64,000 nucleotides of DNA from a virus. Below the pieces are notes generated by a model, which saw only the letters and a list, made by a program, of their open reading frames with translations, was not told where the DNA came from and searched no databases. How positions within the stretch are numbered: the first letter of the stretch is position 1; each line of letters starts with the position of its first letter. Made by a program: the position numbers and the translations under genes. This document shows positions 9,838 to 64,000 of the stretch, in pieces. The stretch is from IMG/VR virus record IMGVR_UViG_3300037541_000804, positions 101,330 through 165,329 of that record; one strand, 5' to 3'.

Positions 9838-9943
9838 GATTTTATTAGTAAATTGACGAAAAGAAAACCCCTTCGTTTACGGAGGGGATGAATTTTCGCA
9901 TTGTTTTAGGAAATTTTGTAAAAGTTAGTGTAATATAATTTGA

Positions 9944-11104
9944 ATGACGCATCGCGGCTACAAATATCGCATATATCCAACAGCTTGTCAAGAGGGAATC
10001 TTGCGCAAAACGATTGGATCGTGTAGATTTGTGTACAATTGGGCGCTGGCACAGCGGCGAGAGGCGTGGGTGACGAGTAAAAAAAGCGTTTCTTACAGCG
10101 CAACGTCCAAAGGTTTGACCGAACTCAAGGAGTCGCCCGAGAAAGTTTGGCTTAACGACGTTTCAAGCGTTTGCTTACAACAAAGTTTGCGAAATCTTGA
10201 TTTGGCGTTTAACAACTTTTTTCGCAAAAAATCCGCATATCCATCTTTCAAGAGTCGAAAAAATGGTGGCAGTGCGCGATTTATGGATAACGCTTTCCAA
10301 ATTAAAGGAGATGGCTTGTTTCTTGCAAAAATTAAAACGCCAATCGTGATTAAGTGGTCGCGTCAGCTTTCCAGCGCTCCTAATTCATGCACAATTTCCC
10401 AAAACGCTGCGGGTCAGTGGTTTGCATCGTTCTTGTGCGAGGAAGAAATACCTCACTTGCCGCCAACGAATAACAAGGTTGGCATTGACGTTGGAATTGA
10501 AAACTTTGCCACACTTTCAGACGGGCGAAAATTTCAATCTCCGAAAGCGATTCGTAAGTTGCGCAAAAAGTTAGCATGCTTGCAAAAGCGTCACTCGCGC
10601 AAGCAAAAAGGCTCTAAAAACCGTGAACGCGCTCGCAAAAAGGTTGCCCGCGTTCACCAGCACATCGCAGATGTGCGTAAAGATTTTCTCCACAAACTGT
10701 CAACTCAACTCGTTCGCGAAAACCAAGCGATTGCAATTGAGGATTTGGCGGTGTCAAACATGGTTAAGAACCGCAAACTTTCTCGCTGTATCAGCGAGCA
10801 AGGCTGGCGCGACTTTCGCACTATGCTTGAATACAAGTGCGAATGGTATGGGCGAGAACTACTTGTCGTTGACAGGTTTTTTCCCTCATCCAAGACCTGT
10901 TCTTGTTGTGGAGCGAAAGCAGAGTTAACATTGAAAGATCGTGTTTGGAGTTGCGCCTGTGGCGCAACGCATGATCGCGACGTGAACGCCGCGAAAAACA
11001 TTTTGGCCGCTGGACAAGCGGTTGCAGCCTGTGGAGCTGACGGAAGACCAACGAAGAACTACGTTCTTCGCGGCAGTCGGCAACGAAGCAGGAAACCTTC
11101 TTAG
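9944..11104 (+). CDS. tnpB: TnpB RNA-guided nuclease (IS605 family), copy 1
   Basis: 386 aa, full length for the family. Visible parts are the N-terminal helical segment with RFVYNWAL, the RuvC-like triad D182 (GIDVGIE), E266 (AIEDLAVSNM) and D346 (HDRDVNAAKNI), and a Cys4 zinc ribbon (CSCCG and CACG, about 319-340). All catalytic residues are intact. TnpB proteins use an RNA from the right end of their element to cut DNA at the donor site and so keep the element in the population. The guide would be read from sequence just beyond 11147. A -10-like TAATAT precedes the ATG. It is closely similar to the copy at 14182. Confidence 0.9.
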   Translation: MTHRGYKYRIYPTACQEGILRKTIGSCRFVYNWALAQRREAWVTSKKSVSYSATSKGLTELKESPEKVWLNDVSSVCLQQSLRNLDLAFNNFFRKKSAYPSFKSRKNGGSARFMDNAFQIKGDGLFLAKIKTPIVIKWSRQLSSAPNSCTISQNAAGQWFASFLCEEEIPHLPPTNNKVGIDVGIENFATLSDGRKFQSPKAIRKLRKKLACLQKRHSRKQKGSKNRERARKKVARVHQHIADVRKDFLHKLSTQLVRENQAIAIEDLAVSNMVKNRKLSRCISEQGWRDFRTMLEYKCEWYGRELLVVDRFFPSSKTCSCCGAKAELTLKDRVWSCACGATHDRDVNAAKNILAAGQAVAACGADGRPTKNYVLRGSRQRSRKPS

Positions 11105-11112
11105 CAACGAGA

Positions 11113-11147
11113 AGAATCCCCGTCGTTCACGGCGGGGAGTATGTCAA
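11113..11147 (+). repeat. IS right-end hairpin, shared with 29056-29090
   Basis: A 35-base segment with CCCCGTC and GGCGGGG arms closing on a TCAC loop region and ending in TCAA. It is the likely 3' part of the TnpB guide RNA scaffold. An identical copy, without tnpB, occurs at 29056-29090 on the other strand. Confidence 0.75.
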
Positions 11148-11339
11148 TTAGAAAAACAATTCAAACAAGGAATGACATGGGAAAATCATGGTGTTCATGG
11201 GTGGCATATTGACCACATAATCCCACTGTCCTCTGCCAAGGACGATATTGAACTGTTGAAAAAACTTTGCCATTATACTAATCTTCAACCTCTTTGGGCC
11301 GAAGAAAACAGGATTAAATCTAACAAGATAACAGCTTAA
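11148..11339 (+). pseudogene. C-terminal fragment of HNH homing endonuclease
   Basis: Starting at the first base after the IS, the frame reads LEKQFKQGMTWENHG and then the HNH core WHIDHIIPLSSA, NLQPLWAEEN and a basic tail. In related free-standing HNH endonucleases LEKQF is preceded by a further N-terminal region, which is missing here, so this is a truncated gene. Without the IS the only local start is an ATG in QGMTW, giving about 55 aa. The last 20 bases overlap the convergent RuvB-like gene. Confidence 0.75.
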
Positions 11340-14019: not shown

Positions 14020-14087
14020 GTTTAGAAATTATTGCCTGTCTCTCCAAGCTGTCACCGATGGCCTTTACCAAACCACGCGCAAAGAAA

Positions 14088-15389
14088 GCCCCTTCCTTTA
14101 GGTAGGGGATGAATTTGCGGTCAAACAAAATAATTAAAAAGTTTTTGGGTGTTTTTTAACAATTAGTGTAATATATGGTGATTGCACCACCGCGCTTACA
14201 AATTCCGAATTTATCCAACGACAGCGCAAGAACAAATCTTGCGGCAGACGATTGGGTGTACGCGGTTCATCTATAATTGGGCGCTGGCCCAAAGAAGGGA
14301 GGCATGGGTGCAAGATAAGAAAAACATGACCTATGCAAAGTCTTGCAAAGCGTTGACGGAGTTAAAAGACTCGCCAGAGCGCGAGTGGCTTAACGATGTG
14401 TCAAGCGTTTGCTTGCAACAAAGCCTCAATAACTTGGACGTTGCATTCGGCAATTTCTTTAAGAAGCGGGCGGCATATCCCAGCTTTAAGTCTCGCAAAA
14501 ACGGTGGTTCTGCGCGGTTTATGGGCAACGCCTTTCGGCTGAAAGGCGAAAGCCTCTTCCTCGCGAAGATTAAAACGCCAATTAAAGTTCAATGGTCGCG
14601 CCCGCTTTCCAGCGTTCCGAACTCCATTACCGTTTCTCAAAACGCCAGCGGTCAATGGTTTGCGTCGTTCCTTTGTGAGGAGGAAATTGAAAAGCTTCCG
14701 CCTTCCAACGGTCGAATCGGTATCGACGTTGGTATTGAAAATTTTGCCACACTCTCGGATGGGTGCAAATTTCAATCTCCAAAAGCAATTCGTAAACTGC
14801 GCAAGAAAATGGCACGCCTGCAAAAGAGTCATTCGCGTAAGCAAAAAGGCTCCAAAAACCGTGAACGCACTCGCAAAAAAGTCGCCCGCCTTCACCAGCA
14901 TATTTCAGATGTGCGCAAAGATTTTCTCCACAAACTGTCAACTCAACTCGTTCGCGAAAACCAAGCGATAGCGTTAGAAGACTTGTCTGTATCAAACATG
15001 GTTAAGAACCGCAAACTTTCTCGCTGTATCAGCGAGCAAGGCTGGCGAGACTTTCGCACCATGCTTGAATACAAATGCGAATGGTATGGGCGCGAGCTAC
15101 TAATAGTAGATCGTTGGTTTCCAAGCAGCAAAACCTGCTCATGTTGTGGAGCGAAGGCTAGCTTTGGCCTAGAAACAAGGCAATGGACGTGTGGCGGCTG
15201 CGGCGCTAGCCATGACCGAGACGTTAACGCCGCAAAAAACATTTTGGCCGCTGGACAAGCGGTGTCAGACTGTGGAGTGGACGGAAGACCAACGAAGAAC
15301 TATGTTCTTCGGGGCAGGACACTACGAAGCAGTAAATCAAAGGCGCGAGCCAAGGAATCCCCGTCTCTTTAGGGCGGGGAGGATGTCAA
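14088..15389 (+). mobile_element. IS605/IS1341-type element 2, tnpB only
   Basis: Left-end hairpin CCCCTTC/GTAGGGG at 14099-14118, followed by ATGAATTT as in element 1. The right-end hairpin CCCCGTC/GGGCGGGG ends in GGATGTCAA at 15389. The ends are related to those of element 1 but clearly diverged, so the two copies are not a recent duplication. No tnpA. Left boundary approximate. The element sits between the 84-base structured element and the 133-base structured element. Confidence 0.7.
14182..15372 (+). CDS. tnpB: TnpB RNA-guided nuclease (IS605 family), copy 2
   Basis: 396 aa starting at TTG 14182, which aligns with the ATG of copy 1. The nearby ATG at 14175 is in another frame. RuvC-like acidic residues (GIDVGIE, ALEDLSVSNM, HDRDVNAAKN) and the zinc ribbon (CSCCGA, CGGCGA) are all intact. 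Roughly four fifths of residues match copy 1, with long identical runs around the RuvC and zinc-ribbon regions. The predicted guide beyond 15389 corresponds to the base of the structured element at 15400. A TAATAT box precedes the start. Confidence 0.9.
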   Translation: MHHRAYKFRIYPTTAQEQILRQTIGCTRFIYNWALAQRREAWVQDKKNMTYAKSCKALTELKDSPEREWLNDVSSVCLQQSLNNLDVAFGNFFKKRAAYPSFKSRKNGGSARFMGNAFRLKGESLFLAKIKTPIKVQWSRPLSSVPNSITVSQNASGQWFASFLCEEEIEKLPPSNGRIGIDVGIENFATLSDGCKFQSPKAIRKLRKKMARLQKSHSRKQKGSKNRERTRKKVARLHQHISDVRKDFLHKLSTQLVRENQAIALEDLSVSNMVKNRKLSRCISEQGWRDFRTMLEYKCEWYGRELLIVDRWFPSSKTCSCCGAKASFGLETRQWTCGGCGASHDRDVNAAKNILAAGQAVSDCGVDGRPTKNYVLRGRTLRSSKSKARAKESPSL

Positions 15390-27876: not shown

Positions 27877-28542
27877 ATGTTTGACGCTATTTCATCATGT
27901 GAGCAAAAATGGATTAATTCTTTTATTGCATTGCAAATTCCAAAATCTGCAAGTTCGAGCTTGAAAAGGTGTTGCGGCCAGAGAAATTTAATACAAAAAC
28001 ACCACGGATTATTCCAGGCGACTTTTGGCCGAAATCCCCTCTATAAAGGGGTTTTCGATGTACGTCATGCTCTTCCATCTGAAATTTTTCGCATATTTTC
28101 AGTTCAAGTATTTGATTATTTTTCTTTTGCCATAGTTCGCTGCCCGTGGCGGCGTATCGAATCGGCGTATCTCTTCGGAAAGAAGGAAAAGCTGCACAAC
28201 GTTTACGGACTATCTGAGGATTGTTCGTTTGAACAGTTTATTGATTTCCTCTACGAGTCTTGGGAGGCTGGACGGCAAGATATTCTCTTATTGAGAAACC
28301 AGACCGAGTGGACGCATTCTCCTATTTTTAAACCCACGGAAATTCTCAAACTAGAAAGTCTAGAAACAGAATGGCCCAAGATGCTTAAGACCTATGACAT
28401 AAAGGGCTTGCCTCCTTTAACAAGAGAGAATGCCACTGATCGTTCGCAACCCTTAGTTTGGAGTAAGGATTCTAAAGAAAAGGTAATTAGGATGTTTGAG
28501 CCTGAGTTTGAGTTGTTGGGCTATTCGAAGACTTTTGCTTAA
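27877..28542 (+). CDS. Sulfotransferase family protein
   Basis: 221 aa. IPKSASSSL at 21-29 is the phosphate-binding loop for the 5' phosphosulfate of PAPS, and AIVRCPWRRIESAY near 86-99 is the 3'-phosphate-binding motif. The LLGYS end is typical of sulfotransferase family 2. It should move a sulfate group onto a sugar or protein, possibly on the virion or host surface, and fits with the glycosyltransferases further right. It is a single rightward gene in a leftward region and its end overlaps the convergent gene by 56 bases, both signs of late arrival. Confidence 0.75.
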   Translation: MFDAISSCEQKWINSFIALQIPKSASSSLKRCCGQRNLIQKHHGLFQATFGRNPLYKGVFDVRHALPSEIFRIFSVQVFDYFSFAIVRCPWRRIESAYLFGKKEKLHNVYGLSEDCSFEQFIDFLYESWEAGRQDILLLRNQTEWTHSPIFKPTEILKLESLETEWPKMLKTYDIKGLPPLTRENATDRSQPLVWSKDSKEKVIRMFEPEFELLGYSKTFA

Positions 28543-29140
28543 TCCAATAATCGGCAACCCTCTTCAATTCGTCGTTTCTGCGTCTCTCGCAAAGTTCGGA
28601 GATTTTCTTGAGATGATCTAACTCGCAATCTTTTAGCAAAACATAGATAGTTGCTGATTTTCCGTCCAACCCGTTAGTTCCCCAGATTTCGTTTTCGGCC
28701 CGCCACTCGAAACTTTCTGTGTCGGGGATTTCTTCGGGAGGAAGAACGCGAACGTCTTCAAGGTTCCAAATACCATATTTGCGGGGATTTCCAACGTTCC
28801 AATCGTTGTATAATTCGGCGAAAGTCTGAGGTACTTCAAACCATAATTTTCGGCCCGTTACACTGAATCTGTTGTATCCGAAATTATTAAGACCAGCCGC
28901 GCCACCATCCATCATAATATAATCTTCTCCCTCTCCAAAGGAACGATAATCATAATGGGCGATAGAAGTTAGGATTTTTTTGCCGTTGGTTACGCCTAGT
29001 AGTTTCATGTTGTTGTGCGGGCCGCTCTTTGTTCTTTGATTTGAGAGGTTAAATTTTGACATACTCCCCGCCGTGAACGACGGGGATTCTATGTCAGAAT
29101 AAAAATGTTCTTCGTCCCATAAGTAGCAAGTGTTTGGCAT
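28487..29140 (-). CDS. Hypothetical protein carrying an IS end near its start
   Basis: 217 aa. The frame is open from ATG 29140, but codons about 18-28 (ESPSFTAGSMS) are encoded by a 35-base copy of the IS605-type right end. The conserved-looking part may start at the ATG within that copy (MSKFNLSNQ). The rest is soluble with a Gly-rich centre and a polar Gln/Thr tail. It is either a real gene that absorbed an IS end or a gene whose original start was displaced. Confidence 0.6.
   Translation of the reverse strand: MPNTCYLWDEEHFYSDIESPSFTAGSMSKFNLSNQRTKSGPHNNMKLLGVTNGKKILTSIAHYDYRSFGEGEDYIMMDGGAAGLNNFGYNRFSVTGRKLWFEVPQTFAELYNDWNVGNPRKYGIWNLEDVRVLPPEEIPDTESFEWRAENEIWGTNGLDGKSATIYVLLKDCELDHLKKISELCERRRNDELKRVADYWIKQKSSNSPTTQTQAQTS
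29056..29090 (-). repeat. Solo IS605-type right end, no tnpB
   Basis: 35 bases identical to 11113-11147, in opposite orientation, with the same hairpin and terminal TCAA. No left end or tnpB lies upstream, so it is an orphan end or excision/deletion scar. Confidence 0.8.
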
Positions 29141-29141
29141 G

Positions 29142-29366
29142 TTAATATTGGCTGATTTCTTTAGCGGCTTCTTCCATTAACTTCATGCGACCTTCCATTT
29201 CTCCAGTATATTCTACCGTGCGGAAAAGTCCATCTATTTCTTTGAGCGCGTCCAAAATGTCCTCGTTTTTGAGCCAAATATTTCTTGCGCCGTAGATTTT
29301 TGAGCAAATTTCATACATCCGAGAAAACGCTTCATCTTCGCTTAGGACGCAGATTGGGTCTTTCAT
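29142..29366 (-). CDS. Hypothetical protein, 74 aa
   Basis: Helical, acidic, with several Met. ATGA overlap with the gene upstream. Unrecognised. Confidence 0.55.
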   Translation of the reverse strand: MKDPICVLSEDEAFSRMYEICSKIYGARNIWLKNEDILDALKEIDGLFRTVEYTGEMEGRMKLMEEAAKEISQY

Positions 29367-60928: not shown

Positions 60929-61549
60929 TCAAATCTTCGGAAGTGGAAAATCTTTTTGCCATTGGGGAATTTTGTCAGCGAAAATCTGGTTGAAGAATTG
61001 CTGTGATTTATAATAACGCAGGTTATCGTCTCCATGAAAATTGTTCCATTTAATTTTGTGGGCCGCTCTTTCTTCAAGAATTGGATCATTGGCCATTTCA
61101 TCTTCTCCAGCACACGGATACAAATTGCCGTTCTCGTCATAACGAGACAAATGAATGGTGATTCCGCCGTTCGTTTCAACCCAAGGTAATTCATTCGAGC
61201 AAAACCTAGTGTCGGTCAAAATCACAACATGAGGATTCTCTTGTTCAGAGAGAGTTTCTTCGAGCTTTTTAATCCAGTGATCGGGGTCTTTGGCCCTCCA
61301 ATAGCCGCTACCATATGCAATAAGAGTTTTTCGAATAAGCTCCTTTTCAAAGGGGTCTTCTGTAAATGCGCTAACACCAGCATTAAGCAAGAAAAGAGGA
61401 TTTAACTCTTTCTTTAATTCATTGGCAAATGCATACTGTTTGGCGAGTATGTTTTTGGCCGCAAATTCTTTAATAAAGACATCTGCCAACGAATTTTTCC
61501 CACACCTTTTTCGGCCCGAAATAGAAACTATTTGATGATTCATCATCAA
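60929..61549 (-). CDS. Deoxynucleoside monophosphate kinase
   Basis: 206 aa. P-loop GRKRCGKNS at 11-19, a DPFEKELIRKTLIAYG helix, ILTDTRFCSNE (like the IDDVRT motif of the neighbour) and a C-terminal helical lid. Resembles T4 gp1 type kinases, making dNDPs from dNMPs. Works with ThyX and the nucleotidase. It is a paralog of the kinase domain of the next gene downstream. Confidence 0.8.
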   Translation of the reverse strand: MMMNHQIVSISGRKRCGKNSLADVFIKEFAAKNILAKQYAFANELKKELNPLFLLNAGVSAFTEDPFEKELIRKTLIAYGSGYWRAKDPDHWIKKLEETLSEQENPHVVILTDTRFCSNELPWVETNGGITIHLSRYDENGNLYPCAGEDEMANDPILEERAAHKIKWNNFHGDDNLRYYKSQQFFNQIFADKIPQWQKDFPLPKI

Positions 61550-61550
61550 A

Positions 61551-62120
61551 CTAACGAGAACATAGCGTAGATTCTTCCAGAATTTTTTCTATCACATCAT
61601 TATAGGATAAGTCCTTAGTGTTCCAATTTGACGGAACACAAACAGCGTTTCCTCCTGCGGCGATAAATTCATCGCAGTTTTTCTGTAGGTCATCAATTAA
61701 TAAAGATTCTGGATTTGCCAGTAAATATTTCTTCTTAGTGAAGACGCAATCGCCCGTGGAAATTGCTGGATTAATCTTTTCATTTAGCCATTTTACTTTG
61801 CCCCAAACGCAATATAACCCATCGGAGGGAGAACTCAGTATTGTTACTGGCGCGAAACGTCTTAAAAAATCATAAAGATTCCTTGACCACGGGTAAGCTG
61901 GCAACGAGTCCCAAAAGTACTGATCATTTCCTTCAACACATTGCCAAAATTCCGCATTTGTAATTTCGAACAGAGCGGCCATATCAAAATTCCCATATTC
62001 TATATATTCGGAAACAGTTATCGGTTTATCTTTGCGATATTTCTTATTGAGTTTATGGAGAGCGGCCTCGAAGAAATTCGTGAGCACGCCGTCTTGGTCG
62101 AGATAAATGTTTCTAATCAT
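61551..62120 (-). CDS. 5'(3')-deoxyribonucleotidase-like HAD protein
   Basis: 189 aa from ATG 62120. HAD motif I is YLDQDGVLTNF (nucleophile Asp 8, acid-base Asp 10). Motif II ILSSPSDG, a Lys in GKVKWLNEK and motif IV LLIDDLQKN follow. Family members remove phosphate from dNMPs and control dNTP pools. The Gln between the two Asp is a little unusual. One base lies between its stop and the kinase start. Confidence 0.8.
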   Translation of the reverse strand: MIRNIYLDQDGVLTNFFEAALHKLNKKYRKDKPITVSEYIEYGNFDMAALFEITNAEFWQCVEGNDQYFWDSLPAYPWSRNLYDFLRRFAPVTILSSPSDGLYCVWGKVKWLNEKINPAISTGDCVFTKKKYLLANPESLLIDDLQKNCDEFIAAGGNAVCVPSNWNTKDLSYNDVIEKILEESTLCSR

Positions 62121-62124
62121 AAAT

Positions 62125-62352
62125 TTAATAAACCTTCCAATCAAACGCAGAAAGACTAAAATTTCCTTCTAATTCTTCCAGTAAGATTTCGCACCAAGAA
62201 CTGGCGACATTACACTCTTTCACGGTGTAAGTTTGGCCGATTTCTAGTTTCGCGCAAGATTCATTGACGCTCTTAAACCAATGTCTGATTTTGTTGTTGG
62301 TAGCAACAAGTTTTTCGCCCTTTTGCGGCCAATTCAATTTAAAATTCTCCAT
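62125..62352 (-). CDS. Hypothetical protein, 75 aa
   Basis: Starts at ATG 62352 within the end of the upstream gene. Beta-rich, with Trp and Cys; unrecognised. Confidence 0.5.
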   Translation of the reverse strand: MENFKLNWPQKGEKLVATNNKIRHWFKSVNESCAKLEIGQTYTVKECNVASSWCEILLEELEGNFSLSAFDWKVY

Positions 62353-62545
62353 ATGGCTCCCACTCTTGAGTTTCAATCTTTAGCTTACGCATGCACATAT
62401 CCTCATCATCGAAGTCCCAAATCTTATTCGGGCCAGCAGGATAATACTGTTCTAGCTCACGCTTAAATTGCCAGAAATCTTCGTAAGCGCGGCGAATCTT
62501 TCTCTGATATTCTTCAAAGGTGGGAGTGAAGGGGTCTAAGTCCAT
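62339..62545 (-). CDS. Hypothetical acidic helical protein, 68 aa
   Basis: Two aromatic helices with many Asp/Glu. Overlaps the gene downstream by 14 bases. Function unknown. Confidence 0.5.
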   Translation of the reverse strand: MDLDPFTPTFEEYQRKIRRAYEDFWQFKRELEQYYPAGPNKIWDFDDEDMCMRKLKIETQEWEPYGEF

Positions 62546-62546
62546 A

Positions 62547-62777
62547 CTATTTTATAGTAATCTTCGCGCCGCCAAAGGTGGGCCATTTTTCTTGGATTTC
62601 ATAATAGCTAGAGCACTGCCTACCAGCGTTGATTTGGCCGAAAAGAAAGCGTTTTGCGTGCTCTCTGGAAAGCTGCGTTTGAACTTCAACATTGAAACTG
62701 TGCGTTAAAATTGGCCGACTCCTTCCATTTTCAAGAGTTTGGGCCGAAAGTTCGTCGGTAGTCAAAAAACTATTCAT
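62547..62777 (-). CDS. Hypothetical protein, 76 aa
   Basis: Basic, mixed fold. Overlaps the upstream gene by eight bases. Unrecognised. Confidence 0.5.
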   Translation of the reverse strand: MNSFLTTDELSAQTLENGRSRPILTHSFNVEVQTQLSREHAKRFLFGQINAGRQCSSYYEIQEKWPTFGGAKITIK

Positions 62778-62958
62778 GATATGGAATCAATTCCTCCGTC
62801 ACCGTTTGCCTAACAATCCGAAAACTGTGGTCAGCGCTTTCATTCTTGGTTATAAAATCCACGGCATCTGCTTGCGCGTGAAAGGATAGACAACATAGCC
62901 AGTCGCTCTCAAAAAGTTTAGACTTGGATTCCACAATATAGTTGATACATTTGATCAT
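62770..62958 (-). CDS. Hypothetical protein, 62 aa
   Basis: Starts at ATG 62958, one base after the MazG-like stop. Strand-helix pattern with His and Cys; unrecognised. Confidence 0.5.
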   Translation of the reverse strand: MIKCINYIVESKSKLFESDWLCCLSFHAQADAVDFITKNESADHSFRIVRQTVTEELIPYHE

Positions 62959-62959
62959 G

Positions 62960-63319
62960 CTAAAACTTCTTGCCACCCTCCTGTTTTCGAGCTTCGTGAG
63001 AGTGATCTTTCCGTGTATCGTTGAACTTCATCTTATCCTCAAAAGCGCCTTGAAGATCATATCCGAATCCGCCAGCGTAATCAAACAAACGAATCAGTGC
63101 ATCAACAAGTTCGACTTCCGCCATTTTCCGAGAAGGAATCTTGTCGTCCATCAAGTTTTTGCGCTCTCCCTCCATAGCTTCGGCGATTTCCGAAACCATG
63201 AGCATTAGAAGCTCTCCCTTGTTTCGAGAAATGGGAAAGCCAGTGTGAATATCCGTCCACCATTTCTGGTTTGCGGCGTGGCAAAGATCGCGATAGCTGT
63301 TTAGGTCCATACTAAACAT
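62960..63319 (-). CDS. MazG-like nucleotide pyrophosphohydrolase
   Basis: 119 aa (start could be the ATG at 63310). The MazG/dUTPase-type helical metal site is visible: ELLMLMVSEIAEAMEGERK (ExxE) and EVELVDALIRLFD (ExxD). Members hydrolyse (d)NTPs to monophosphates; phage versions also affect alarmone levels. Ends a dNTP-supply group and would complement the HD protein at 6.6 kb. Confidence 0.75.
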   Translation of the reverse strand: MFSMDLNSYRDLCHAANQKWWTDIHTGFPISRNKGELLMLMVSEIAEAMEGERKNLMDDKIPSRKMAEVELVDALIRLFDYAGGFGYDLQGAFEDKMKFNDTRKDHSHEARKQEGGKKF

Positions 63320-64000
63320 ACGTTAGAATCGGCGGAATCTAACATCTTTTTCTTTCGGCGCAAAACATTTTCGGGCGGAAAGAAAGAATCTTCCCCTTAT
63401 ATGTAAAAGTTACGAATGCGCCGATTAGCGCGTGTACCGTATAACTAATCGTACTCTAGACCAGTATCTTAGTTTGCTTCGCAAAGTGGAATCCGTCTTT
63501 CGCTCATTCTTCGCTCCAGACTTTGAATGAGAGGGCTATCGCCGCCCTCTCAAACTCTCTTGGCGCTTGACAATCTTGTATCGCTTTTCTCCGAGAGGTT
63601 TCTCTATGCCCCAAGATTCTCAAGACTCATCCTCTTCTATTGTTGTTCTAAGCAGACGTTAATCGTTGCCTCAACGAATCGTCTATTCTTTGCTTGAATA
63701 TATACAGCACAATCGCTTTCGCGCTCCGCTTATGCTTCGCATTTTCTCCTACTTTCCCCCATCATCCCCCAAATTACAGCGGAAAGACCCAACTTCTTGC
63801 AAAGATTTTTTCGCGCTTTGTCGGGCAAAGTTTTCAACTCGTTGAAAATCAATGGTTTAGCTAATTGTAAGAAGTTTGTAAAAGTTTAAAAGCGCTGTTC
63901 AGTTGAACACCTATTTTAGGTTAGTTTTCAGAAAAAGTTGAAAACTGAGGGTTTTGTCTTTCGGGCGGAAAAAGTTGATCTTTTTGCTAGATTTGTCTCT
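63320..64000. other. Gene-free, hairpin-rich region at right edge
   Basis: About 680 bases with no convincing frame on either strand. Contains hairpins GATTAG/CTAATC (63423-63450), CTCATTC/GAATGAG (63503-63531), GAGAGGGC/GCCCTCTC (63529-63551), the near-palindrome TTTTCAAC-TC-GTTGAAAA (63831-63848) and AGTTTTCA/TGAAAACT (63923-63946). A 13-base direct repeat TTTCGGGCGGAAA occurs at both ends (about 63369 and 63959). A TTGACA lies at 63567-63572. It could be a replication origin, a control region or a leader. Confidence 0.55.

Follow-up and report, generated by a model that had tools for sequence, protein, structure and literature searches.

How did the right end of an insertion sequence (IS) come to lie on its own in a phage genome, with no transposase gene and no left end beside it? 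The question is raised by 35 bases at positions 29056-29090 of the window, by which we mean the whole 64,000-nucleotide stretch analysed (G000:101330-165329 of the joined record G000, 165,329 bases). Direct sequence comparison bore out the preliminary description: 29056-29090 on the minus strand equals 11113-11147 on the plus strand at every one of the 35 positions, in inverted orientation. A 30-mer search returned this pair as the sole inverted exact match of at least 30 bases in the record, and a chance match over 35 exact bases is negligible. The record holds three tnpB elements, listed here with the orphan copy:

9858 to 11147, plus strand: element 1, of IS1341 type, with tnpB at 9944-11104, a left hairpin at 9868-9887 and the right end at 11114-11147; left boundary approximate.

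14080 to 15389, plus strand: element 2, with tnpB at 14182-15372 and left and right hairpins of its own; left boundary approximate; supported by Pfam.

G000:53366-54532: tnpB of the third element, whose right end is GAATTCACGCCGTTCACGGCGGGGAGTATGTCAA.

29056 to 29090, minus strand: orphan right end, consisting of an (A)GAAT guide, a CCCCGTCG-TTCA-CGGCGGGG hairpin, AG, TATG and a terminal TCAA, and matching the right end of element 1 at 35/35.

Similarity between the orphan copy and element 1 begins one base before GAAT and stops after TCAA, the point where elements 1, 2 and 3 cease to resemble one another too. Right ends of the IS608 type carry GAAT, a hairpin and TCAA in that order; because the orphan copy has this layout, with a guide tetranucleotide, an imperfect hairpin and a cleavage tetranucleotide at the boundary, the shared 35 bases are the complete right-end signal of the IS200/IS605 tnpB-only family and little beyond it. 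Its designation as an orphan IS right end thus held up. So did the absence of companions: at 29056 we found neither a left end with its own hairpin nor tnpA or tnpB between ends, the neighbourhood contains no tnpB, and full left-end matches in the record are restricted to elements 1 and 2. No gene for the Y1 transposase TnpA was found anywhere in the 165-kb record. A hairpin scan of the whole record for further solo ends, allowing up to three mismatches, returned only the right ends of element 1 and the third element (G000:54539), the left end of element 1 and the orphan copy.

The tnpB of element 1 matches the Pfam families OrfB_IS605, Cas12f1-like_TNB and HTH_OrfB. Identity alone does not prove element 1 to be the parent of the orphan copy, because the right-end 34-mer (with one C/T and one free position) recurs in contigs of Shewanella, Nocardiopsis, Thiomicrospira, Salinivibrio, Planosporangium and a Halobacteriales archaeon. 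The T in GAGTATGTCAA of the orphan copy is common to elements 1 and 3 and not to element 2. At its own locus, element 1 adjoins what remains of the 3' part of an HNH endonuclease gene (window 11148-11339; a weak HNH_4 match, with 43% identity to a protein of G004); the N-terminal part of that gene does not appear beyond the opposite end of the element.

The preliminary description had placed the orphan copy inside a gene, the open reading frame (ORF) 28487-29140, and had proposed that the copy might supply its start codon. Neither proposal was supported by comparison with related phages. The full ORF found nothing when used as a homologue query and has no Pfam or PHROGs match; homologues were obtained by way of a neighbouring gene, from an alignment and by searching the records of the relatives themselves. 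They start at the equivalent of Met45 (the ATG at 29008), with MKL(L/K)G, and for this reason the gene most likely starts at 29008:

28487 to 29008, minus strand: the MKLLG gene (MKLLGVTN...), 173 amino acids, with a conserved start and no assigned function; homologues at 54-67% identity all begin there.

29009 to 29141, minus strand: the leader, between the upstream gene (29142-29366) and the start at 29008; it contains the orphan end and a possible interrupted frame from 29140.

The hairpin therefore lies in the leader, 48-82 nt upstream of the conserved start, and falls within ORF 28487-29140 merely because the frame happens to stay open upstream. The ATG within the hairpin (SMSKF, 29062) is not conserved, and the GGGGAG one base before it is poorly spaced for a ribosome-binding site. 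Tail to tail with the MKLLG gene, and overlapping it, is a sulfotransferase-family gene (window 27877-28542; PF03567, E 3e-12) that is conserved in many related phages. In the closest relatives (G019, that is L176, 5176-6458, and also G020 and G021), a GIY-YIG/NUMOD homing endonuclease gene (Pfam E 1.6e-12) interrupts the MKLLG gene some 63 bp past its start and is followed by a full-length MKLLG copy with a different 5' end. The MKLLG start region took inserts in both lineages.

If the 35 bases were an ancestral part of this locus, they would be expected in homologous loci. The orphan hairpin, with up to three mismatches allowed, is absent from every related record sampled, including the fetched homologue loci, and since no sampled relative has it, the orphan end looks derived rather than ancestral. 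The pattern TGACATAGAATCCCCG has four viral matches, all lacking the hairpin, and nothing in the sampled relatives corresponds to the 133 bases that separate the upstream gene from 29008. G021 carries a tnpB element, and the G020 contig ends before the corresponding place. The ancestral state was not seen, as neither a full element nor a clean empty site turned up at exactly this place in any allele or relative.

A metagenomic record with a repeated 35-mer, whose two ends are diverged copies of each other, might also arise when two genomes are joined at a repeated right end. Such an assembly artefact is highly implausible here: the gene order on both sides (29607, 29363, the MKLLG gene and 27877) is kept in G019, G020 and G021. 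Nor could joining two genomes at the repeat have produced the sequence to the left of the hairpin, which is not tnpB. The record ends themselves (G000:1-2238 and G000:162353-165320, the latter window 61024-63991) align collinearly, with gaps, at about 84-92% identity, a pattern that would fit closure of a circular or terminally redundant genome from reads belonging to two strains.

The leader may retain a hint of what preceded the hairpin. When 37 bases are deleted, from after TGAC to TCAA (34 also works), the frame from the ATG at 29140 ends at a TGA that overlaps the ATG at 29008 as ATGA, a stop/start overlap common in packed phage operons. This restoration suggests that a small upstream frame may have been interrupted and fused in frame to the MKLLG gene, although agreement of frame after such a removal has a one-in-three probability by chance. 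No homologue of the small frame was detected.

A larger inverted repeat surrounds the hairpin:

29053 to 29101, minus strand: extended inverted repeat, in which ATTCTGACATA, left of GAAT, is the reverse complement of the right-hand TATGTCAAAAT at 10 of 11 positions; it reaches three bases past the element terminus.

Elements 1-3 have no similar mirrored flanks. Eleven-mers within one mismatch of ATTTTGACATA number 9 in 330,658 positions, and inverted pairs of equal quality and spacing number 3 in the record; the fold of the hairpin has z-scores of -5.6 on the minus strand and -4.9 on the plus strand. Because the mirror extends three bases beyond the terminus, it is not wholly inherited from the element, and flanks mirrored across the element boundary hint at a deletion by template switching at the hairpin. 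The mirror might instead reflect selection for a longer hairpin, but the site has neither terminator nor promoter. More generally, a regulatory role, as RNA or as DNA, is an improbable reason for the hairpin to persist in the MKLLG leader: although it is long, stable on both strands, 48 nt before the gene start and extended by pairing past the element boundary, it has no terminator tail, no promoter and no Rfam match, and none occurs near the MKLLG-gene homologues.

We favour the reading, at a probability of roughly 0.6, that an IS1341-type tnpB-only element closely related to element 1 left these 35 bases behind as a dead relic. The orphan right end is real and probably recent. Of the origins offered in the preliminary description, a deletion scar is the one that best fits a right end with no tnpB, left end or TnpA. 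An IS200/IS605 element, or the right-end part of one, would have come to lie in the MKLLG leader and then lost everything except the right-end signal, that is, the GAAT guide, the hairpin and the TCAA terminus; we infer the former presence of the whole element at this place. Loss may have proceeded through template switching associated with the hairpin, as suggested by the bases left of GAAT, in which the terminus and three bases of local flank reappear in inverted form. The nascent strand would fold back at the hairpin, copy its own flank and rejoin the template on the far side, which would account for the mirror as well as for the disappearance of the remaining element. As a by-product, the insert would join the short upstream frame to the MKLLG gene in frame, giving the long ORF, and the relic would require no function. 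One feature sits less easily with a scar: the retained piece begins within one base of GAAT, which is neater than the usual random deletion. If mirrored flanks recur at other orphan ends, one could test whether IS elements are lost by template switching at hairpins; for annotation, a scar of this kind can be misleading because it extends an ORF call.

The preliminary description also proposed a minimal element mobilised in trans. The unit would be a terminal-only mini-element (a palindrome-associated transposable element, PATE) of about 37 nt, running from after TGAC to TCAA and inserted by a TnpA supplied by the host or another element. TGAC precedes both the 37-nt unit and the left end of element 1 (TTGAC), several plasmids carry right ends with no detectable tnpB, and mobility of such forms is suggested by the six strain-specific insertions described for a 52-bp terminal-only derivative of ISHwa23 (PMC3119063). 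PATEs carry a near-terminal palindrome of IS605 type, have no coding capacity, leave no target duplication and are mobile or join left and right termini; of these traits, the palindrome and the lack of coding are seen in the orphan end. It has no left-end sequence (left of the hairpin is GAAT, of right-end type, rather than AAAA/AAAG), it is present in a single copy, and the TGAC flank is not common to elements 2 and 3. Given that precedent for mobility on one side and the lack of TnpA in the record on the other, we regard this origin as unlikely. Recombination between left and right hairpins, as in Haloquadratum, was also considered and is not favoured, given the right-end type of the bases left of the hairpin. 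A bolder version, in which a lone right-end hairpin, its cleavage site and a mirrored terminus form a 34-37-nt mobile unit that TnpA can insert in trans into phage genomes, is very unlikely; were it true, the orphan right ends on plasmids of haloarchaea and cyanobacteria would be copies of the unit and not scars.

The suggestion that the orphan end serves the TnpB of elements 1 and 2, as a decoy or a guide source, found no support and is extremely unlikely to be correct. Its appeal is that the copy is identical to the element 1 end that closes the TnpB guide-RNA scaffold. That scaffold (omega-RNA/reRNA) normally extends back into the 3' part of tnpB, but the orphan end holds only the last 35 nt, amounting to the last hairpin, without the part from 3' tnpB, and has no Rfam match.

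We compared the probable relic with known systems. The GAAT guide, hairpin and TCAA cleavage tetranucleotide stand in the same order as in right ends of IS608 layout, but the orphan end has no paired left end and hence is not a complete element. Among the IS605-type elements of Haloquadratum walsbyi, deletion between similar palindromes yields 52-bp terminal-only forms, some of which may still move (PMC3119063). These PATEs are alike in having lost the core and tnpB while keeping one near-terminal palindrome and the terminus, in tens of bases; they differ in keeping left-terminal sequence and arising by recombination of left and right palindromes (52 bp) (PMC3119063), whereas the phage copy has no recognisable left-end sequence and a mirrored flank. 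An ends-only IS605 copy in Halanaerobium hydrogeniformans likewise consists of transposon ends without intact genes, but spans 271 nt, with a left hairpin, 58 nt of tnpB and a whole right end (PMC7290912).

Right ends without tnpB recur. In a hand-picked set of plasmid and phage loci, which does not give a rate, those of Natrinema, Halomicrobium, Natrononativus, Haladaptatus and Oscillatoria plasmids (L157, L183, L185, L187 and L184) have a similar hairpin and an ATGTCA terminus, though their hairpins are divergent from that of the phage copy, and show no tnpB similarity within about 2 kb upstream. In L150-L155, L186, L188 and L189 the right end is directly preceded by a tnpB or transposase gene, and in L156 by a remnant of one. 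The 176-kb plasmid pAt1 of Allochromatium tepidum (NZ_AP024564.1, W01) carries 16 hairpins of this IS605 type at up to three mismatches, one of which follows a tnpB that survives as two fragments. Set beside these systems, the relic is most likely a new and fairly ordinary instance of a published kind of decay product, and adds a phage example to those described for IS200/IS605 elements.
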